A stretch of 46,517 nt of DNA, taken from Mesonia sp. (GTDB lineage: Bacteria; Bacteroidota; Bacteroidia; Flavobacteriales; Flavobacteriaceae). This document shows positions 23,607 to 36,890 of the stretch, piece by piece; within the stretch, counting starts at the first letter, position 1, and each line of letters starts with the position of its first letter. A program made the translations under genes and the position numbers. The stretch covers positions 1 to 46,517 of the forward strand of contig DTTX01000037.1 of NCBI GenBank assembly GCA_012964435.1, given 5' to 3'. The notes beneath the pieces were generated by a model. The model was not told the origin of the DNA, searched no databases, and saw only the letters and a program-made list of their open reading frames with translations.

Positions 23607-26600
23607 TTAGTTTTTTTCTTCGGTCGATTCAACAATAAACTTAGGTTCACCAGAAATTTTCTCCTGTAAATATTGAAACATTATAAATAAAATCGGGATT
23701 AAGAATACTCCTAATAATGTTCCTATTAACAAGCCTCCAACAGCTCCTGTACCGATCGACCTGTTTCCTATCGCTCCAACTCCATTAGCTAATACCAGTG
23801 GCATTAACCCTAAAATAAAAGCAAAAGAGGTCATTAAAATTGGTCGTAAACGTGCTTTTGCACCGTCGATCGCAGCATCTACAATAGATTCTCCACGTTT
23901 TCTTCGTTGTATAGCGAACTCTACAATTAAGATGGCATTCTTAGCTAATAAACCAATAAGCATAATTAAGGCGATCTGGAAATAGATATTATTTTGAAGC
24001 CCTAACAATTTTATTGAAAAATATGCTCCGAAAACTCCTAATGGCAACGAAAGAATTACAGATAATGGTAATAAATAACTCTCGTATTGTGCCGATAATA
24101 AGAAGTACACAAATACTAAACATAATATAAAGATCATCGTGGTTTGGTTACCTGCATTTACTTCTTCACGCGTTAATCCGGAATATGCTGTGTTGTAATT
24201 ATTGGGTAAATTTTCAACTTCTTCTTCAATAATATTAATAGCATCACCGGTACTGTAACCCGGGTTCATCGCAACAGTAAGTTTAGTCGAGTTAAATAAA
24301 TTAAATCGAGTTACGGCTTGTGGTCCATAAACGCGTTTTAGTGTTATGAACTGAGTAATTGGAGCCATCTCACCGCTACCTGTTCTTACAAAAAGTTTGC
24401 TTAAGTCACTTTCTGTAGCTCTATCTTCCGGTAAAGATTGAATGTATACACGATATTGTTTACCAAATCTGGCAAAGTCTGCAGCATAAACCCCACCAAT
24501 ATATCCTTGCAATGTTGAAAATATACTGCTAATAGATACTCCTTTATCTTTAGCAACAGGCACATTTATGTCCATTTCGTATTGCGGATATCTAGTGTTG
24601 AAAGATGACTGCGCATATTGCACTTCCGGATGCTTCATTAACGATTGAATAAACTCTTGATTGGTTTGATCGAGTTCTGTAAAAGCACCACCAGACTGAT
24701 CTAAAAGGTTAACTTCTGCTCCGGCCGAAGCACTAAAGCCCGGTACACTCGGAGGCGCAAAGAAAATAATATTTGCATCCGGGATGGTGGCAGCGATCCC
24801 AAAAAGTCGCTTGGTAATAGCATCTACCGATAGTGAATCTTCTTCACGCTCAGACCAATTTTTCAACTTAATAAATCCTAAAGCATAATTGCTCCCTTGC
24901 CCACTCAATAAGCTCACTCCGTCAATCATAGAAACGGCATCTACACCCGGTAGTTCTTTTACTTTATTATAAAGAACTTCATTTACTTGGTGAGTTCTAT
25001 CTAAAGTTGCTCCGGCAGGTAATTCGATATTAGCGAAAACAATACCTCTATCTTCATTAGGGATAAAACCGGTTGGAGTCGTAGTGGAAGTCCACCAAAT
25101 ACCTGCAATAGATAATGCTAATATTAAAAAGGTGATCCACTTATTTTTGTATAAAAAGGCTAATGATTTTCCGTAGCGATTAATGGTTGCATTAAACCCA
25201 CGATTAAAGCCGTCGTAAAAACGTTGTAAAAATGTTTTTTTCTTTTCTTCATCGCTATGAGGTTTTAAGAAAAGTGCACATAAAGCAGGGCTCAATGTTA
25301 ATGCATTTACCGCAGAAATTACGATCGAAACAATTAATGTAATACCAAATTGTTTATAGAAAACTCCGGTTGGACCTTGTACAAAGGTTACCGGTACAAA
25401 AACCGCCGCCATTACTAATGTAATAGAAATAATAGCACCAGAAATTTCATGCATCGCACCTAAAGTCGCTTTTTTAGAACTTTTAGCACCTTCATCAATT
25501 TTGGCGTGAACCGCTTCAACCACTACAATCGCATCATCTACTACAATACCAATAGCTAATACTAAAGCAAAAAGTGTTAGGAGGTTAATCGAAAACCCAA
25601 ATAAATTCAAGAAAAAGAAAGTACCAACGATCGACACGGGAACCGCAATTGCGGGTATTAATGTAGATCTAAAGTCTTGTAAGAAAATAAATACTACGAT
25701 AAATACCAAGATAAACGCTTCGATTAAGGTATGAACTACTTTTTCTATAGAAGCATTTAAGAACTCATTCGTGTCGTATGGAATTAAAGTTTTTACTCCA
25801 TCAGGAAAATCTTTTTCAAGAACCTCTAATCTAGACTTGATCTCTTCGATAATCTCTTGTGCATTTGATCCTTTGGTTTGGTAGATAGCCATGTTAATAC
25901 TTGGGTAGCCATCTGTGATCGATTTTTTATTATAGGTTTGTGCATCAAGCTCGATTTCTGCGACATCTTCAAGTCTTAAATATTGACCGTCTCCTAATGC
26001 TTTGATGATTATATCTGAATATTGCTTTTCAGTTTTAAAACGACCACTATACTTAATCACATAAGAGAATGCTTCTCCATTATTTTCACCTAAAGACCCT
26101 GCGGCTGCTTCTAAACTTTGTTCGTTTAGTGCAGCAGTTACATCTGAAGGAACAAGGTTATAAGCCGCAAGTTTTTCCGGTTTTAACCAGATACGCATTG
26201 CGTAATCTTGTTGAGAGAACACGTTTACATCTCCAACCCCGCTAACCCTTTGCAATTCTGGGATAACATTAATTTTTAAATAATTCTGTAAATAGGTAGA
26301 ACTATAATTTTCATTTGTTGTATAGAAAGACAAGAACATTAAAGAACTCGTCTGCTGCTTTTGAGTCAATACTCCCGTTTGTTTAACCTCTGCCGGTAAT
26401 AATGGGTTGGCTCTTGCTACACGGTTCTGTACGTTTACCGCAGCAATATCAGGATCTACATCTTGATCGAAATAAACTGTGATATCTGCCGTACCGTTAT
26501 TGGTTGCTGTTGAGGTTAGATAGGTCATCCCTTCAACACCATTAATTTGTTCTTCTAAAGGTATAATAACACTTTCCAGAATCGTTTCAGCATTCGCTCC

Positions 26601-28532: not shown

Positions 28533-30881
28533 CTATTTTAAATCTTTTTCGATTTTAATTTTTCTGGAGATCGAATTTCCTTCTTGATCGGTAACCGTAA
28601 GTAGGTGTTCGCCGGGTTCTGGTTCGTAAGTAAGCTCATGAAAAGTTTCGGTCATCTCAATAAATTGCTTATCGATGTACCAATAAACCTTTGTATCAGA
28701 ATTGCGATGTGCTAATTTAAAAACCACGGGATTGATTTGTTCTTTAAAATTCTTCGGAAGTAAGATTGCTTCATTTTTCTTCGGAAAGATAAACTGCATT
28801 AATTTTTCTCCTTCTTTTAGACAGTCTGATTTAAACGGAGGGAGACTTTTATATTCCGGATGTTTGGGCGCATAATAATATTCCATCACCGGCGGAAGCG
28901 AAAACCAGTTGTTTACCTTCATTTCTGCTAGTTCGTAACAAGAAGAATTCACCTGAAATTGTTCCGATTCATCTAAAAATACTTGCTTGTGATAAGGGCA
29001 AGAAGTGGTTCGACTTCCATTTTTCGGAATTAACTCTTGTGCTGTTTCTTGACAATAAATTCCTGCTAAATGACCACTTTTCGAGCAAATTTCAGCTTCA
29101 ACCAATTCATCATAAGGAATTTGAAAAGCATCAGATTTTGGTAGTTTATCAAAACTTTCAAATAAAATAGGAGCGGCGGCTTGCAAACCTGTTAACCCCG
29201 GTCGGCCTTCGCCATCGGCATTCCCGACCCAAACGCCAACGGCAAAACGAGCATTTACACCTATGGCCCAAGCGTCTTTAAAACCGTAACTCGTCCCGGT
29301 TTTCCAAGAAATGGCTTGTGAATGCGAAAAAAAATTCCAGTTTTCTTCTCCGCTTGGGCGATTGACTTCTTCTAAGGTTTTCAGCGTATGATAAATAGCT
29401 CCGGCATGAAATACTTCAGGCTGAAATTGATTTGTTCCGAAATCAGCTTTTTTATTCAACTTATAAATCGGTTCTAAAAATTCGTTCGGTTTATATTCGC
29501 TAGAAGAAGAATTGAAGTGGTTCAAAGTTGAAGCTATTCCGGCATAAGCATTGGTAATATCCCAAAGAGAACTTTCTGCGCCGCCTAGAATTAGTGAAAG
29601 TCCATAATAATCGGCAGACTTATTAATATTTTTCTGCTGAAGTTTTTCAAGCTGATGATAAAATTTTTGCAAGCCATAATCCTGAAGCATACGAACCGCC
29701 GGCACGTTTAGCGATTTTGCCAAAGCAACACTTGCGGGAACAGCGCCATGAAATTCTTTATCAAAATTTTGCGGACTATAACCGTTCACCGAAGTAGGAA
29801 CATCGGCAACGAGCGTATGCGGAAGCAAACTTCCTTCGTTAAGCATCGCAGCATATAAAAAGGGTTTTAAAATACTGCCTGTACTTCGCGGCCGCTGAAT
29901 AATATCTACAAAATGATCGTGTTCAGAACTGGTAGGCGAATTTCCCACATAGGCTAAAACTTCTCGCGTATTCACATCAAGAATTAAAATCGCAAGGTTA
30001 TGAATTTCATTTAGTCGTAAAGCTTCGTAATTTTTACGAGCGATCTCATTAATTTGTCGCTGAAGCGAATAGTTGATCGTTGAGGTTAACTGCGTACCTT
30101 TATGGTCATTTCTTAACTTTTCTGTGAGGTGCGGAGTAATTTCCGGAAGCGGAAAAGGTTTTCCTGGAAGTTGTTCTGCTAAGGCTAATTCGTAAGTAGT
30201 TTGGTCGATCACTTCATTTTCAAAAAGCTTTCGTAACAATCGGTCGCGCTTTTGTTGGAAAATTTTCTCATTCTTCCCGGGGAATATTAATGCCGGCGCA
30301 TTAGGCAAAACTGCCAAAGCAGCGGCTTGCCCCCAACTTAAATCTTGGGAAGAGAGGCCAAAATAGCGCCAAGAAGCAGTTTCTAAACCAACCACATTTC
30401 CACCGAAAGGAGCATAAGTTGCATAAAGTCTGAGGATTTCTTTTTTATTGAAACGAACTTCTAATCGTGTAGCTTCAAAAATCTCAATCACTTTTTCCCA
30501 GTAAGTCCGCTCTTGATTTTTACGTGATAGTCGAATCACTTGCTGCGTAAGCGTGCTTCCGCCACGACGATCTTCTGTGGTAAGGTTTTCCCAAAGCGCC
30601 TTGGTGATCGCTACCGGATTAAAACCGGGATGATAGTAGAAATATTCATCTTCAAAATTCAGAATGCATTGCTCAAACCGATACGGAATACTGTCTTGCT
30701 CAGGAAATCGCCATTGCCCGTCATCGGCAATGCGCGCTCCCAACATCAAACCTTTCCGACTTTTTATAACCGTAGAAGTAGGTTCGTTAAAAAGCTGTTT
30801 CGGCAAACAAAAAAGCCACACCATTCCTACAATAAATAGTAAACCTATTTTGATAGGATGTTTTTTAAGAAAGTGAAGCAT
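28533..30881 (-). CDS. pbpC: Penicillin-binding protein 1C
   Basis: A 782-residue bifunctional peptidoglycan synthase on the inner membrane. One N-terminal membrane helix (IGLLFIVGMVWLFCLP, about 12-27). The glycosyltransferase domain (about 60-230) shows FEDEYFYYHPG with its catalytic glutamate and GGSTLTQQVIRL. The transpeptidase has S336 in STGSILKPF and K527 in SWKTGTSYG. A C-terminal BiPBP_C domain (about 690-780) is diagnostic of PBP1C. It lies downstream of the alpha-2-macroglobulin gene on the same strand, the well-known bacterial pairing in which A2M traps attacking proteases and PbpC repairs the wall. A repeat-flanked GIY-YIG cassette now separates the two. Confidence 0.96.
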   Translation of the reverse strand: MLHFLKKHPIKIGLLFIVGMVWLFCLPKQLFNEPTSTVIKSRKGLMLGARIADDGQWRFPEQDSIPYRFEQCILNFEDEYFYYHPGFNPVAITKALWENLTTEDRRGGSTLTQQVIRLSRKNQERTYWEKVIEIFEATRLEVRFNKKEILRLYATYAPFGGNVVGLETASWRYFGLSSQDLSWGQAAALAVLPNAPALIFPGKNEKIFQQKRDRLLRKLFENEVIDQTTYELALAEQLPGKPFPLPEITPHLTEKLRNDHKGTQLTSTINYSLQRQINEIARKNYEALRLNEIHNLAILILDVNTREVLAYVGNSPTSSEHDHFVDIIQRPRSTGSILKPFLYAAMLNEGSLLPHTLVADVPTSVNGYSPQNFDKEFHGAVPASVALAKSLNVPAVRMLQDYGLQKFYHQLEKLQQKNINKSADYYGLSLILGGAESSLWDITNAYAGIASTLNHFNSSSSEYKPNEFLEPIYKLNKKADFGTNQFQPEVFHAGAIYHTLKTLEEVNRPSGEENWNFFSHSQAISWKTGTSYGFKDAWAIGVNARFAVGVWVGNADGEGRPGLTGLQAAAPILFESFDKLPKSDAFQIPYDELVEAEICSKSGHLAGIYCQETAQELIPKNGSRTTSCPYHKQVFLDESEQFQVNSSCYELAEMKVNNWFSLPPVMEYYYAPKHPEYKSLPPFKSDCLKEGEKLMQFIFPKKNEAILLPKNFKEQINPVVFKLAHRNSDTKVYWYIDKQFIEMTETFHELTYEPEPGEHLLTVTDQEGNSISRKIKIEKDLK

Positions 30882-30921
30882 TTTTATTTTATTCTGAATT
30901 TAATATATGAATTAGAATTGT

Positions 30922-30944
30922 GTCACACTGAGCTTGTCGAAGTG
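30922..30944 (+). repeat. REP-like element, left copy
   Basis: GTCA, two variable bases, then CTGAGCTTGTCGAAG. The inner CTT-GTCG-AAG can fold as a small hairpin. The right copy at 31284-31307 is its inverted counterpart, with the same 15-base core. The frameshifted GIY-YIG frame ends 18 bases away. Confidence 0.75.
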
Positions 30945-30961
30945 TTTGTCAATCCGATAAT

Positions 30962-31279
30962 TACTCAGGCTTTCCAAATTGGGTATGATTTCTTGAAAAA
31001 CGAAAAAGGTCTTGCCAATTTTCTTTAATAAGAGCTTCTTTCTTTTTTCTAGACCAACCTTTAAGTTGTTTTTCAATTTTTAATTGCCTCTTCTGGGTTA
31101 GTAAACTGAATATTCCATTTTAAAGTTACTGGTCTTCTCTTAAAAGTATAACTCCTTCTATTTATTCCTTCATTATGCTGCTCAATTCTTTTCTCTAAAT
31201 TATTTGTAATCCCGATATAGTAAGAATTATCTGCACATAACATAATATAGGTATAATAAAACTTCATCACTTTATTCAT
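30962..31279 (-). pseudogene. GIY-YIG endonuclease, frameshifted
   Basis: The first 68 codons (31279-31073) encode an N-terminal GIY-YIG domain: YYTYIMLCADNSYYIGITNN has the paired tyrosines and glycine, and RIEQHNEG and RRPVTLKW fit the family. The frame stops after NPEEAIKN. Deleting one A from the A5 run at about 31078-31082 restores the usual family ending (EEAIKIEKQLKGWSRKKKEAL and on) to a stop at 30962-30964, for a total near 105 residues. It is therefore a single-base frameshift: a real pseudogene, slippage, or a sequencing error. The inner ATG at 31265-31267 is an equally good start. Intact members are small stand-alone nucleases of the UPF0213 type, of unclear cell role. The REP-like copies abut both ends. 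Confidence 0.75.
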
Positions 31280-31283
31280 AAAA

Positions 31284-31307
31284 CTGCTTCGACAAGCTCA
31301 GCATGAC
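31284..31307 (-). repeat. REP-like element, right copy (inverted)
   Basis: Read on the minus strand: GTCA-TG-CTGAGCTTGTCGAAG-CAG. It lies 4 bases before the first ATG of the GIY-YIG gene, so it forms a hairpin (GCTT-GTCG-AAGC) in the leader of that mRNA. Of the 21 positions GTCA through core, 19 are identical to the left copy. Confidence 0.75.
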
Positions 31308-31334: not shown

Positions 31335-34300
31335 TCACTGCACCACTTTAATCCATTGGCCTTTGGTTCTTGCAAAATAAGTGTTATCGTACATTGCTTC
31401 GGCTTGTGTGCCCGGCAAATAATACGTACCTAAATAAGAAGCGTTCAATTTCACCGAGAAGGTTTTGGTTTTCTTGCTGTCCAATTCAAAATAGAAATTT
31501 ACCCGGTCGTCTCGAATATCTTTATAATCGGCTTCACCATCGGCGCCACCATTTAAACAGGTAAAACTAGTATTTACCACTTCCCAACCACTCGGGAAAA
31601 TTTGTGAAAGCGCAATATTATCTACATTATCCATCGAAATATTGGTGACGCTCACTTTTGCAGTGACTTCTGTGCCTTGTCTTAATTCAGAAACATCGAT
31701 GCTGTTGCCGGCGCCATCTACAAATCTAGTTTTTACAGCAAGTTTGCTTTGGCTGATTAACTCTTTACCTAACGGAAGTTTTCCGCTTTGCGAAACTGTT
31801 ACATACAAAATATTGTCTTTCTGGTTTTTTAAACTCAATTGGTTACTACCCATTTTTATCTTCAAATCTCGTTTAGCTAATGCCTTTGTGGTTTGAATGT
31901 TTTCGCTAATTCCATTGAGTTCATAGTTTACTTCAACAGACTTTCCGCCATTTTTATTGGCCATTTTTGCTAAAGCTAACAAGGCACAAGAAGTTTCTTG
32001 CGTGCTGTGCCAACGAGAAGAAGATAAATTTTTCGCTAATGAAATTGCCAGTTCTCTTTGTTGATTATCTTCTAAAACTACCATCGTTTCTAAGGCCATC
32101 GCTTTGTTTCTAAACGGCGATCCATAGGTGTAATAATTGTAATCATTACTTTCAAAATTAATATTGGCGGTCGCGGCAATTTCTTTTGCTACACGATCTT
32201 TTCCTGCTAGCGCATAAGCAGCAGCCAATCGCCATTTAGCATCATTACTCATTTCTCCAGATTCGAGTAAACGGTTCATCGCAGCTAATTCTGGTTGTCC
32301 TGCTAAAGCTAAGGTGTAAAGACGGTAAGCCTGAATTAAACTTGAATTGTAGCGAGTTCTCGAATTTCGCCATTGTCGGGCTTCATTTCTTTGGTAACGC
32401 ATCCAATTGCTTAAAAAAGTAATCGGTAAGGCATAACCTTTTTTCTTAGCTTCTAACATAAAATGCCCGGCATAATTGGTTCCCCATTCGTTGGCATTGC
32501 CACTTTCCGGCCAGTAACTTAAACCGCCGCTTGTCGTTTGAAAATTGTTTAAGCGGTTAATGGCGTGTTTAATATTCTCTTCTATTTCTTGTTTTTTGTT
32601 GAAGGAAAGATCAAAAATATCTCCCATAAATAACTGCGGGAATGCTCCGGAAGTCGTTTGTTCTACACAACCGTGCGGATATCGAATTAAGTACTCGATT
32701 CGTTTGCTGAAATCCATCGGAGGAAGCGTTGAAAATTCTACGGAAGCAGCATTACTTCCTTCAACCCCAAAAGTAGTCAAGTCAATTTCTTGGCTTTGCT
32801 TATTTTCTAAAGTATAGGTTGTCGATTTTTGAGTAATCGGATTCGGATTCTCCACATCAATCTCGACCAATGTTTTCGCTTTTTCTCCGTTTCCGGAAGC
32901 GTAGATCTGAAAGGTTTGTGGTTGATCGGTCGCGTTCACTTCAAATTCAAAATTCACGATTTGTTCGCCTATTTCGTTAAAAGAAATATTTTTGGAAGTT
33001 TCTCCAACAGCTGTGAAAGCTTCATCGGCTTTTATTTCAACTTTTACATTTTTCACTTGCTTTTCCATCGCAAAAACTGTCACGGGTAAAGTTACTTTTT
33101 CTCCCGGAGAAAGTTTTCTTGGTAACGAAGCCAAGACCATTAAAGGTTTTCTTACCGGAGTTACTTTTTCAGCATTTCCGTAGGCAGAAGTTGAATGATT
33201 TCCGGCAACGACCATGGTTTTTACCGAACCGACATAATTCGGCATAAATAATTGGTGTGTTTTCGATTCACCGGCTTTTAAATGAAACGGACCTAAATAC
33301 GTGACTACAGGTTTAAAACGATCGGCTTTTCTGTTTTTAGCTCCGGCCGCGGCATCGCCACCACCGATTTCATAAATATTCTCCACGCTACCGGAATAAG
33401 CTCCGATCACATCATCAAAAATATCGTAGGTTTTAACGCCCAAAGCTTCGCGAGCATAGAAAGCACCGTGAATATTTGGCGTGGAAAATCTTGTTAAATC
33501 GAGTAAACCTTCATCGACCACAGCAAGGGTGTACGTCATTTCTCGATCTTGAGTTTCAGAAATTTTTACGGTATAATTTTCTTCCGGTTTGAGCAATTTC
33601 GGCATTTCAATTTTAGGTTGAAGTTTTGTTTTTGGGTTTTCAACCATCAGCGGAATTACTCCGTATAACCGAATAGGTAAATCATTTTTAGTTTGGGCGT
33701 GTGGTTGCATCAAAGAAATATTCACGTAAACATTCGGCGCCATTTCTTTGGTAAGCGGAATTTTAACCTGCGTTTCTCCTTTTTGTGTGGCTACCCATTG
33801 TTTAGAAAGTACTTCGGTCCCGTTTTCAATACTAATAAAAGCGCTTCCTTTACTTCCGGAAGGGAAGGTGATCACAGCTTCTTCACCAACTTGATAGTTT
33901 TCTTTATCGGCAGAAAAAACAAGCATTTTAGAACTTTCTGCATTGGCTCCGGAAGGTCGTTTCCACCAATTTCTATAAAAATAAACGGTTTTACCGGTTG
34001 CGTGACCAGAGGCTTTATCGATCACTCGAATTAAATAACGACCACCATTTCGTTCAGGGATATTCAATGTAAATTGACCTCTACCATTAGAGCCTGTAGA
34101 AACGGTAAAATCTTTAACAGGTCGGTATGTATTGGTATTCTCATAACGAGAAAGGTTATCGCGACCGCGGCTCCACCACCAACGCCATTCAATCTCAAAT
34201 ACTTTTACTTCTAATTCGCGATTGCCAGAAACTTCACCTTGTGCGTCAACGCTTACTACATCGAAAACAGTATTTTCATCGGTATAATAAGAACCGTAAC

Positions 34301-36890
34301 GATGAGGTTCTGGTGCGAGTAAACCAACAAAATAATCATAAGGCGCCAAGTTTTTAGAAAATACATCGATCGAGAAATCGCCGCCACCTTCAAAAACTTT
34401 AGTTAAAAAGGTTGCTTTCAGCATTCCCGGAGATTTTTCATTCAGCTCAATTTTTTTACTGAAATAAGCTTCGCCTTCAGAAGAAAGTTGTGTTTCTAAC
34501 ATGGGTTGCTCGATTTTCTCAAAACTACGAACAGGATCGATAAAATCGTAGTTCGGAAATTTGTCGAAAGCACTTGAAGTTGAAGTGAGTGTTACTTCCA
34601 TTTCAGCTTTTAAATTTCTTGCCGGCGCGCCGTGTAACCAAGTAGAACTTAAATTTCCCGAAATAGGTTGAGTGGCATCGAGAATTTCATCGTCAAAATC
34701 GATCTTAATTTTTAATCGGTTTGGTTTTACGGTAGCTACTTTTAGGTTTTTAGAAAAGCTTGCGCCGCCTACGTGAACCGTCGCATTCCAATTTCCGGTA
34801 GGATCGGTATCTTGGGTATCAATAGGAAAGTAGTAAAAACCATTTTTAGCTTGTTGCGGATTCACATTTTCACTTAAGATCTCTTGTTTTACCAATTTTC
34901 CGCGAGCATCGGTCACTTCTAACTTGATCGGATGATTTTTAGGCAACGGGTTGGCTTGGTCATTCAAGGCGAAAGTTAAATGAATCGTATCTCCCGGCCG
35001 ATGAACACCACGTTCAGTATATAAAAATCCTTTTAAGCCTTTTTCTAAAATTTTACCGGAAACATCGAACTTACTTAAAGAAAGTGCATTCCCGTCATCT
35101 AGTTTTGCATAGGCATAATTTTTTCCTTTGTGAGCAATGGCAAAAGCGGCACGTTTATCACTATCGATAATTGCAAAACCTTCTTCATCTGTGGTCATTG
35201 AAGCGATAAGTTGTTGCTGGTAATTATAAATTTCTACCGTAACACCGGGTTCTGCTGTTGCATTTAATAAGTTGGTCGTAGCAAAATGATAAGAACGATT
35301 ATTACTTTCTTTAACGATAAAACCAAGATCAGAACCTAACACATTGGTGACGGCAAAACGATTTTCTCGATAATAAGAGGTGTGACAAGGGTTGTCGCGT
35401 TCTTGCCAGTTGTAAGGGGAGTTTCGCCAATCGTAAATTTCGTTGTCCCAATATTGCTCTTCACGTTCTTCTTCATCGCTAATGCTGGCGTTTTGGTAAC
35501 GCTCATTTTGCTCTGTTTGGGTTTCTTCGGTTTCACTTCCGCAATCAAAAGTGCTATAAGCTTTTTTAAAACTTATTTCTACCTGATACATGGCTCCCGG
35601 ATCGGCTTTAATGAAATCTGAAATATTAAGCGCGTGCGCCTTCCAAGAACTCAGTTCAAATTCGTTATTGGTTTTTAATGAAATTGTTTTTTTCGCAACG
35701 CGTCTTCCTACACGACGAAGGTTGTAAGAATTTTCTTCGTGCAATTCAGCATTTTGTAAAAACTGAAGCATATTATCTTCATAAATTTTAATCACACGCA
35801 CATCGACTGCAGAAAGATTAACGCTTTCAAAATAAATTGGGGTTTGCTCAGAATTGGGTAAAATAACTCCTTGTGAAAGCAAACGTATGGCTGGTTTGAG
35901 TTGCTGAAAAGAAAGCGTCTCAGAAAAATCTTTTTTAAGGTGATAACCGTAGCTGTTTTTAATTCCTTTAAAAATATCAATTTTTATTGCGCCCGTAATT
36001 CGGTTAGAAGGGTAAACGTGCAGCACATTTCCGTCGACTTCAAAGCGGAGTTTATTTTGATTTTGAATATTTACTAAACCGTCAAAATTTTGATCTTCCT
36101 GCAATGGGTCTGAAAAATTGATCGAAACCGAACTTTGTTCACCACGAGATGAACGTAAATCGATCACGGTGAAATTGTTTTTCCCCGGGATTGGGAAAGT
36201 ATTTTTACCTTCATTTTCTGCTTTGATAGGTTTACCGTCCCAAGAAATTTCTACTTGAGAATCATCAATTTTCCGCTGAATGCTATCGATGGTAAACGTG
36301 AAATAATTAGCATCGGCAGCTTCTTCCGGCCAAGTGATCTTTAGATTTTTCCCTTCTTGATCTGCTTCAATAATTTTTTTAGCATTTTTTAGCTGAATCA
36401 CATCCGAAGCTTCTAAGGTTCCGGTCACATATTGCCATTCTTTATCATAAGACTGTAAATTGTCGAGGTTAATTTTGAAGTTGGGCTGAATGGTCTTAAA
36501 ACTGAAGGTGAAACTCTCGAAGCCATCTTTTACGTCTTCGTATAATTCATCTAGATCTAGCCGAACCGAATATTCGGTATCGGGTTCTAAATAGTTTTCT
36601 GCTTTAAACAATAAGGTAGTACTGTTTTCTATAAGTAACTTTCCTTTGGTAGGAGGCGTAACTTTTATGTATTCTGAAGGGATTTCTTGCGTCATTTCAA
36701 ACTGCTCCAGCGCTTGCGCCAAGTCTATACGAATAGGCTCTGCAATAGAAGACCTGCCTTGCGTATGAAAAGAAATATATTCTTTAAACCTAAACAGGTT
36801 GTCGGTATTTTCTGTGGTGGCATCTTTGTCTTTACAAGCGGAAATAAGGCATAAGCAGAGCAGGGCAAATGCTCGATAAATGTTTTTCAT
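31335..36890 (-). CDS. Alpha-2-macroglobulin family lipoprotein with thioester
   Basis: A 1851-residue periplasmic lipoprotein that should trap proteases that breach the envelope. Lipid signal: LLCLCLISAC with C19. A chain of macroglobulin (MG) beta-domains fills residues about 40-1000, with the MG1/bait region between. The thioester motif CVEQ is present (C1408, PHGCVEQTTSG), so it can bind a protease covalently. The alpha-alpha helical thioester domain follows to about 1680, then a receptor-binding-like C-terminal domain. It is upstream of pbpC on the same strand, the known A2M-PBP1C pair. A 16-base palindrome lies 18 bases before its start. Confidence 0.94.
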   Translation of the reverse strand: MKNIYRAFALLCLCLISACKDKDATTENTDNLFRFKEYISFHTQGRSSIAEPIRIDLAQALEQFEMTQEIPSEYIKVTPPTKGKLLIENSTTLLFKAENYLEPDTEYSVRLDLDELYEDVKDGFESFTFSFKTIQPNFKINLDNLQSYDKEWQYVTGTLEASDVIQLKNAKKIIEADQEGKNLKITWPEEAADANYFTFTIDSIQRKIDDSQVEISWDGKPIKAENEGKNTFPIPGKNNFTVIDLRSSRGEQSSVSINFSDPLQEDQNFDGLVNIQNQNKLRFEVDGNVLHVYPSNRITGAIKIDIFKGIKNSYGYHLKKDFSETLSFQQLKPAIRLLSQGVILPNSEQTPIYFESVNLSAVDVRVIKIYEDNMLQFLQNAELHEENSYNLRRVGRRVAKKTISLKTNNEFELSSWKAHALNISDFIKADPGAMYQVEISFKKAYSTFDCGSETEETQTEQNERYQNASISDEEEREEQYWDNEIYDWRNSPYNWQERDNPCHTSYYRENRFAVTNVLGSDLGFIVKESNNRSYHFATTNLLNATAEPGVTVEIYNYQQQLIASMTTDEEGFAIIDSDKRAAFAIAHKGKNYAYAKLDDGNALSLSKFDVSGKILEKGLKGFLYTERGVHRPGDTIHLTFALNDQANPLPKNHPIKLEVTDARGKLVKQEILSENVNPQQAKNGFYYFPIDTQDTDPTGNWNATVHVGGASFSKNLKVATVKPNRLKIKIDFDDEILDATQPISGNLSSTWLHGAPARNLKAEMEVTLTSTSSAFDKFPNYDFIDPVRSFEKIEQPMLETQLSSEGEAYFSKKIELNEKSPGMLKATFLTKVFEGGGDFSIDVFSKNLAPYDYFVGLLAPEPHRYGSYYTDENTVFDVVSVDAQGEVSGNRELEVKVFEIEWRWWWSRGRDNLSRYENTNTYRPVKDFTVSTGSNGRGQFTLNIPERNGGRYLIRVIDKASGHATGKTVYFYRNWWKRPSGANAESSKMLVFSADKENYQVGEEAVITFPSGSKGSAFISIENGTEVLSKQWVATQKGETQVKIPLTKEMAPNVYVNISLMQPHAQTKNDLPIRLYGVIPLMVENPKTKLQPKIEMPKLLKPEENYTVKISETQDREMTYTLAVVDEGLLDLTRFSTPNIHGAFYAREALGVKTYDIFDDVIGAYSGSVENIYEIGGGDAAAGAKNRKADRFKPVVTYLGPFHLKAGESKTHQLFMPNYVGSVKTMVVAGNHSTSAYGNAEKVTPVRKPLMVLASLPRKLSPGEKVTLPVTVFAMEKQVKNVKVEIKADEAFTAVGETSKNISFNEIGEQIVNFEFEVNATDQPQTFQIYASGNGEKAKTLVEIDVENPNPITQKSTTYTLENKQSQEIDLTTFGVEGSNAASVEFSTLPPMDFSKRIEYLIRYPHGCVEQTTSGAFPQLFMGDIFDLSFNKKQEIEENIKHAINRLNNFQTTSGGLSYWPESGNANEWGTNYAGHFMLEAKKKGYALPITFLSNWMRYQRNEARQWRNSRTRYNSSLIQAYRLYTLALAGQPELAAMNRLLESGEMSNDAKWRLAAAYALAGKDRVAKEIAATANINFESNDYNYYTYGSPFRNKAMALETMVVLEDNQQRELAISLAKNLSSSRWHSTQETSCALLALAKMANKNGGKSVEVNYELNGISENIQTTKALAKRDLKIKMGSNQLSLKNQKDNILYVTVSQSGKLPLGKELISQSKLAVKTRFVDGAGNSIDVSELRQGTEVTAKVSVTNISMDNVDNIALSQIFPSGWEVVNTSFTCLNGGADGEADYKDIRDDRVNFYFELDSKKTKTFSVKLNASYLGTYYLPGTQAEAMYDNTYFARTKGQWIKVVQ

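Follow-up and report, generated by a model that had tools for sequence, protein, structure and literature searches.

A small GIY-YIG nuclease gene bracketed by inverted GTCA-tagged hairpin repeats in Mesonia and its relatives

The repeat-gene-repeat unit and its hairpin

The window, the whole 46,517-nucleotide stretch of Mesonia sp. DNA that was analysed, contains a compact unit (30921–31307) composed of a small GIY-YIG nuclease gene flanked by two tagged palindromic repeats in inverted orientation. The gene occupies the gap between the ORFs at 28533–30881 and 31335–36890 (both minus strand), which we take from their recognisable sequences to encode penicillin-binding protein 1C (PBP1C) and alpha-2-macroglobulin, respectively. 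The 15-base core of the repeat, CTGAGCTTGTCGAAG, is found exactly twice in the window, at 30928–30942 on the plus strand and at 31287–31301 on the minus strand, and each copy has GTCA two bases outward. This confirms the two identical, inverted cores described in a sequence-only reading of the same DNA. With up to three mismatches, GTCACNCTGAGCTTGTCGAAG matches this bracketing pair and nothing else in the window, and has no match in 100 shuffles of it. Tagged and loose patterns likewise give the bracketing pair alone within the window, so that a third, diverged copy proposed after ohr was not recovered; a further window match with three mismatches (24839–24853) is at chance level (0.76 expected).

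The upstream repeat (GTCATGCTGAGCTTGTCGAAG, 31287–31307, minus strand) carries its GTCA tag outward and lies 7 bases ahead of the first ATG of the gene, and the downstream repeat (GTCACACTGAGCTTGTCGAAG, 30922–30942, plus strand) is inverted and starts 18 bases past the stop codon (30961–30963). The downstream spacing is that given earlier, whereas the upstream spacing had been put at 4 bases. Between the repeats, the gene extends over 30961–31279 on the minus strand and belongs to the GIY-YIG family, as had been claimed (PF01541, 54.5 bits against a cut-off of 22.6), but it is broken by a frameshift rather than intact. Its open part, a 68-aa ORF (31073–31279, minus strand), contains the PF01541 match with both the GIY and the YIG tyrosines, and the conserved C-terminal part continues to the stop codon in another frame. 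The subfamily HMM accordingly matches in two pieces of 100.5 and 44.3 bits in different frames, and an A-run (31077–31081, minus strand) lies near the frame break. The frameshift may reflect decay or an assembly error, the latter because the host genome is a 90.5% complete draft. Since the gene is broken, the window copy is probably a relic whose repeats persist. The region 30700–31500 matches no known RNA family in Rfam at E values up to 1, and three proteins match no known NCBIfam model at E values up to 0.001.

In the host draft genome (3.05 Mb), the 15-mer occurs 11 times and its backwards control does not occur. The strict pattern GTCANNNYGAGCN{2,4}GTCGAR, generalised from the repeats of relatives, finds 41 copies there, 11 with a 2-base and 30 with a 3-base loop spacer, and its control finds none. 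The stem was analysed in 379 distinct copies from the loci, collected with a pattern that fixes neither Y nor R. The four outer stem pairs are Watson-Crick in 96.6, 96.3, 93.7 and 87.9% of these copies, against 67, 65, 26 and 34% for shuffled partners and 6–27% for partners slid by one base; the copies and genomes are related, and neither these percentages nor the p values below represent independent points. The two outermost pairs use all four pair types. In addition, a T precedes GTCA in 332 of the 379 copies, and GTCA is the conserved tetranucleotide, as had been suggested. Read from this covariation, the putative hairpin is composed of TGTCA, a variable 4-bp stem, GA, a loop of 5 or 6 bases, TC, a bulged GA and the returning strand of the stem. 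Four single hairpins folded with DNA energy parameters are no better than shuffles. The hairpin is revealed by covariation, and stability alone would miss it.

Repeats beside and beyond the gene

Related loci were collected with A1, an alignment of 11 relatives, several of which were first met through the repeat. The GIY and YIG tyrosines, one R and one E, presumably the catalytic residues, are invariant across the 11 proteins. Among the best 80 of 550 confirmed A1 matches in named genomes, 59 loci have a strict repeat within 250 bp on either side in any orientation, and 71 have one by the loose pattern. When the expected orientation is required at the same distance, the strict repeat is present upstream at 46, downstream at 42 and on both sides at 32 of these best 80 loci, and the loose one at 52, 58 and 43, respectively. 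The repeats are concentrated next to the gene: counted in 200-bp bins, the first bins of both sides hold 157 strict hairpins and the whole range of 800–4000 bp holds 19, with the flanks being shorter at some loci. The commonest order in the first bins is GTCA>gene<TGAC (54 + 52 hairpins, against 27 + 24 in the other orientation). The loci bear names including Flavobacterium, Winogradskyella, Chryseobacterium, Pedobacter and Niabella, and a strict repeat adjoins the gene also in single drafts labelled Ignavibacteriae and Nitrospirae (L107 and L138).

None of 18 stretches with GIY-YIG genes of other subfamilies contains a tagged hairpin within 300 bp; their A1 scores stay below 90 bits, and fragments of broken genes of the present subfamily are excluded. 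One stretch (L060), collected on account of the motif, does show two cores without the tag. The expectation that genes of this subfamily would be flanked elsewhere is borne out by these counts. The bracketed arrangement is real, holds generally among close relatives, and is specific to a single GIY-YIG subfamily.

The repeat and the gene also go together across genomes. The family sample is composed of 199 genomes from 198 genera, in which the gene was called by an A1 match at E ≤ 1e-22 among up to 24 scored candidates in each genome listed. The strict repeat occurs in 110 of these genomes (1480 copies, up to 87 per genome) and the gene in 70. The median number of repeats is 11 in the 70 genomes with the gene and 0 in the 129 without it (Mann-Whitney p 5e-17). 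Among carriers, 8 have no repeat and 47 have at least five, and the corresponding numbers for non-carriers are 81 and 20. Repeats equally common with and without the gene, which would have spoken against the earlier proposal, are therefore not what is observed, and the difference is seen again outside the family.

The phylum sample contains 395 genomes, 354 of them outside the family, with up to 12 candidates scored in each genome listed. Outside the family, 20 genomes reach a match of 125 bits or more; repeats are present in 19 of them and number at least five in 17, against 30 of the other 334 (p 4e-15). With a weaker cut-off there are 56 carriers, of which 24 have at least five repeats and 27 have none, and 23 of the 298 non-carriers have at least five (p 5e-7); gene absences outside the family are under-called in these comparisons, because few candidates were scored per genome. 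Beyond the family, gene and repeat remain linked in close relatives of the subfamily, and the link weakens in distant ones. Several repeat-rich genomes have no gene match: G200, G267, G275 and G231 of the phylum sample with 238, 97, 64 and 63 copies, and G195 and G177 of the family sample with 39 and 35. The gene may have been lost or, having diverged, escaped detection, or something else may move the repeats. In five repeat-bearing stretches of G267, G245 and G356, no such gene lies near the hairpins.

The type of hairpin follows the type of enzyme. A pattern-matched flanking repeat in the expected orientation accompanies 99 of the 127 distinct proteins that score 120 bits or more, and 62 have one on both sides. 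The loop length is equal on the two flanks in all 62 of these genes, to which local duplication could contribute. On the tree of the 99 proteins, loop length changes 5 times, against a mean of 30.7 for shuffled assignments, and none of 500 shuffles is as low; the tree was built by a quick method, includes near-copies and leaves 43 of its 96 inner branches open. Enzyme clade and hairpin loop type are shown to change together. The association of gene and repeat suggests that the two form one system.

Moreover, the repeats form doublets. Of the pairs of strict neighbours no more than 140 bp apart, 134 face in opposite directions (69 −+ and 65 +−) and 55 in the same direction (27 ++ and 28 −−). 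The outer length is 58–81 bp in 51 of the 65 +− pairs, which are not commoner than the −+ pairs, and the units at Flavobacterium loci measure about 66 bp.

Six host repeats, at loci fetched for their repeats, sit in the apical loop of Flavo-1 RNA hairpins (RF01705). Flavo-1-like hairpins were sought by a simple pattern in 757,544 host bases, namely the window and five contigs chosen for bearing earlier hits, and nine were found. Four of these have a short loop (C26:99237, C41:73256, C41:74495 and C57:9700). Three loops are filled by the repeat (C26:3266, C57:50722 and C57:62209), two of them by a strict copy, one per loop type, and the third by a copy with one mismatch. The remaining two contain another palindrome, like ATTCCTGC..GCAGGAAT (C26:43021 and C34:42325). 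Because the loops are short in some copies and differently filled in others, we read them as probable sites of past insertion or replacement. REP-like palindromes of two kinds or more thus recur in the apical loops of Flavo-1-like hairpins, and Flavo-1 itself may be a palindromic element. In the same sample, a crude ORF mask takes up about 91% of the sequence, and 11 of the 14 strict repeats fall outside it.

A REP-type reading and its rivals

We read gene and repeats as a REP-type enzyme-repeat pair, in which a small GIY-YIG endonuclease of about 100 aa stands in the place of the Y1 transposase RAYT, and give this reading a probability of roughly 0.55. In our judgement, the enzyme probably recognises the hairpin, whereas the chance that it also moves the hairpin is slightly below even. 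The enzyme would recognise its own hairpin, most likely as folded single-stranded DNA, and would nick it at or beside the TGTCA tag. The nicked ends could then let a hairpin or doublet be copied to new sites via repair or replication, and the loops of other hairpins would be the preferred sites. The reading is directly testable, because the matching of enzyme and repeat lets the flanks of a gene predict its cognate hairpin. Enzymes of the GIY-YIG type are not known to carry out transposition by themselves in bacteria. If a second and unrelated enzyme shared the REP arrangement, the REP life style would have arisen more than once, repeats in RAYT-free genomes would find an explanation, and the common and usually unexplained 'GIY-YIG nuclease family protein' would acquire a function.

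REPs are common bacterial repeats, and RAYT is the sole enzyme tied to them in the consulted parts of three papers on RAYT/REP systems, REPtrons and REPINs (PMC2817692, PMC3116915, PMC8266576). As described in these parts, RAYT/REP systems share with the present unit a gene for a DNA-cutting enzyme between two inverted tagged hairpins, inheritance mostly in place, many solo repeats, inverted doublets (the layout named REPIN, PMC3116915), a conserved 5' tetranucleotide, an interrupted stem and the joint change of enzyme and repeat. TnpAREP cuts single-stranded REP, and tag and bulge contribute (excerpted text of PMC8266576). Several of the features by which RAYT/REPtrons are recognised are found here: inverted flanks at the window pair and at 32 (strict) or 43 (loose) of the best 80 of 550 related loci; a palindrome with compensatory changes in the 379 copies, with four folded singles no better than shuffles; and abundant repeats with doublets, that is 41 host copies, up to 87 per genome in the family sample, and doublets in relatives.

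The differences lie in the enzyme and in details of the repeat. The present enzyme is a GIY-YIG protein (PF01541), unrelated to the Y1/HUH transposases (PF01797), and the tag is (T)GTCA instead of the GTAG/GTGG described for RAYT systems in the parts consulted. Unlike a REP, the hairpin has a covarying 4-bp outer stem, read with a 2-base GA bulge. The present repeats number 1–238 strict copies per sampled genome that holds any, compared with about six hundred REPs in E. coli and thousands in some Pseudomonas (PMC8266576, in the part consulted). The unit is not a RAYT, because the arrangement is shared but enzyme and tag differ; in its genomics, it works like one.

Other tagged palindromes have been described. 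The GTAG- and CGTC-tagged palindromes of PMC3733652 are likewise tagged and short, and CGTC is found in Bacteroidetes too according to the portion consulted; the text of that paper contains no word starting with GTCA and no GIY-YIG. Both GIY-YIG and word-initial GTCA are absent from the consulted portion of PMC12306157 (RepRanger). The core string, in five spellings, occurs in no paper of the searched literature, outside which most subscription journals and preprints lie, and the terms GIY-YIG and 'repetitive extragenic palindrom-' appear together in a single paper, each a single time. For the present family, neither the bracketed unit nor the tag, the doublets or the co-diversification was found in print in that same literature, with the matches of one query inspected in part.

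A known GIY-YIG system offers the closest rival explanation. The Ssn enzymes of Neisseria are reportedly single-strand-specific GIY-YIG nucleases whose target is repeated in many copies, and that repeat is also said to begin with GTCA. The Ssn work reportedly counts homologues in the thousands, each with a target of its own, and the pairing of enzyme and repeat may therefore already be in print in general form. The present enzyme could similarly cut its cognate repeats in single-stranded DNA, for example transforming DNA, and thereby limit or shape recombination nearby, with the repeats being targets multiplied by some other process. Both systems combine a small GIY-YIG enzyme with a dispersed, palindromic, sequence-specific repeat, which in the present case would be the cognate of the enzyme. 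A GIY-YIG enzyme with a repeated, tagged and foldable cognate sequence is consistent with such a role, as are the Neisseria precedent and the other flanking palindromes, several with GTCA, at some small GIY-YIG genes of other subfamilies. The present subfamily differs from Ssn in its EK[QK]IK[GK]W[ST] signature, in its core YGAGC-nn(n)-GTCGAR and in the bracketing of the gene. Target cutting alone leaves the inverted bracket, the inverted doublets and the seats in Flavo-1 loops unexplained, and we consider it unlikely as the whole account; it is compatible with the REP-type pair and does not exclude it.

How the unit is inherited bears on a second rival, a homing-type element that spreads by cutting alleles without it, with the repeats marking the recognition site. 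The 70 carriers in the family sample have 1–4 gene matches per genome, and within groups of related species the gene lies at one fixed locus. The window unit and that of Cochleicola gelatinilyticus (L066) lie at the same PBP1C/alpha-2-macroglobulin junction and align as a single block from repeat to repeat (69.7% identity over 389 columns). One related locus (L097) is a decayed form of another (L070) at the same place. In the same-genus genome G053, the junction has no unit; because Cochleicola has the unit at the same junction, this is best read as a loss of the unit together with its repeats, with an identity of 65–69% making the boundary unreadable. In orthologous pairs outside Algibacter, the gene diverges at about the pace of its neighbours, which argues against homing. 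The favourable case comes from three Algibacter loci (L125, L126 and L163), in which the gene is 99.2–99.6% identical and the repeats are almost identical too, whereas a divergence of about 9% or more separates the genes around that of L126 from those at the other two loci, a sign of recent replacement at one site. Against homing, too, such a gene needs no dozens of solo repeats, and homing as the general explanation appears improbable.

Insertion sequences were considered as well and set aside, given the 1–4 gene matches per genome, the synteny in related species and no clean empty site in seven alignments. The search for empty sites compared 115 combinations of hairpin cluster and partner at orthologous loci and gave 16 candidates; none of the seven whose alignments were inspected has exact boundaries, and the comparison proposed with the sequence-only reading has not yielded the empty sites it looked for. 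Plasmid and phage records searched with one query protein gave distant GIY-YIG matches alone, all below 60% identity (21 plasmid and 23 phage records). The idea of a RAYT-like element with a different enzyme is partly supported, by the bracket and by the link with copy number. The mobilising or maintaining part assigned to the enzyme is not carried by the gene's inheritance in place or by the seven alignments, and it meets exceptions in the 20 of 129 family non-carriers with at least five repeats and in the 27 of 56 weaker-cut-off carriers with none.

Repeat number changes by tandem duplication, too. In Eudoraea and a Flavobacteriaceae draft (L117, L140 and L141), 3, 2 and 1 tandem 48-base units, respectively, lie upstream of the orthologous gene.

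The sampled genomes also contain the enzyme usually tied to REPs. Y1 transposases (PF01797) occur in 72 of the 199 family genomes, and the gene has its effect on repeat number both with Y1 (p 5e-6) and without it (p 5e-12). The host genome has no PF01797 match, compared with matches in 5 of 14 control genomes; as the host genome is 90.5% complete, the search could have overlooked a Y1 or a second gene in it. A RAYT is unlikely as the mover in the host, given this result and the value for Y1 among carriers (p 0.94). The remaining rival, in which the hairpins are ordinary Y1-moved REPs or terminator-like and the GIY-YIG gene lies in repeat-rich intergenic DNA by chance, draws on the occurrence of Y1, on its weak overall link with repeat number (p 0.018; 0.08 among non-carriers) and on the 20 repeat-rich non-carriers of the family, but is very improbable in view of the lack of a Y1 effect among carriers, the missing Y1 match in the host, the genome G053 with one Y1 yet no strict repeat and no A1 match at the cut-off, the 18 other-subfamily stretches without a tagged copy, and a loop type that tracks the GIY-YIG protein tree.

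Palindromes at other small GIY-YIG genes

The REP-type reading may extend beyond one subfamily. Palindromes picked by eye flank several of 15 genes of other subfamilies, and several of them carry a GTCA tag. A second such gene in the host (C74:78207–78428, L010) is flanked by GTCATGCTGAACTTGATTCAGCATC, and the flanking palindromes are TGAACTTGATTCA in L031, ATTCCTGCGAAAGCAGGAATC in L030, ATCCTGAACTTGTTTCAGGA in L016 and L021, and GTCATTCCGCACTTGATGCGGAATCC in L041. A scripted comparison of the two flanks of 17 genes found exact inverted repeats of 12 to 15 bases in L021, L027, L030 and L031, and inverted repeats of 10 bases or fewer, or none, in the other 13; control cross-pairs reach at least 12 bases in 7 of 272 cases. 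These observations suggest a possible general rule, by which each GIY-YIG subfamily would have its own flanking palindrome.

We tentatively propose, at somewhat less than even odds, that small GIY-YIG nucleases as a class disperse several superfamilies of tagged hairpins. Each enzyme would copy its own cognate via single-strand cutting at the GTCA tag, followed by insertion into the loops of other hairpins; the proposed cognates would be YGAGC..GTCGAR for the present subfamily, and TGAAC..TTCA and CCTGC..GCAGG for others. If this is true, evolution would have arrived independently at a second way of doing the job of RAYT.

The GIY-YIG proteins of UPF0213 (PDB 1zg2 and 1ywl) have the same domain over about 80 aligned residues; the entries are listed as hypothetical proteins, without a link to repeats. 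Among six genes from a sister subfamily (95–115 bits), the tagged repeat is present at one (L028) and cores are present at three (L028, L046 and L047), the last two having been fetched for the motif. At L046 and L047 (95–110 bits), the YGAGC..GTCGAR core is kept with another tag and a longer stem (GGTGGCTGAGCTTGTCGAAGCCACC).
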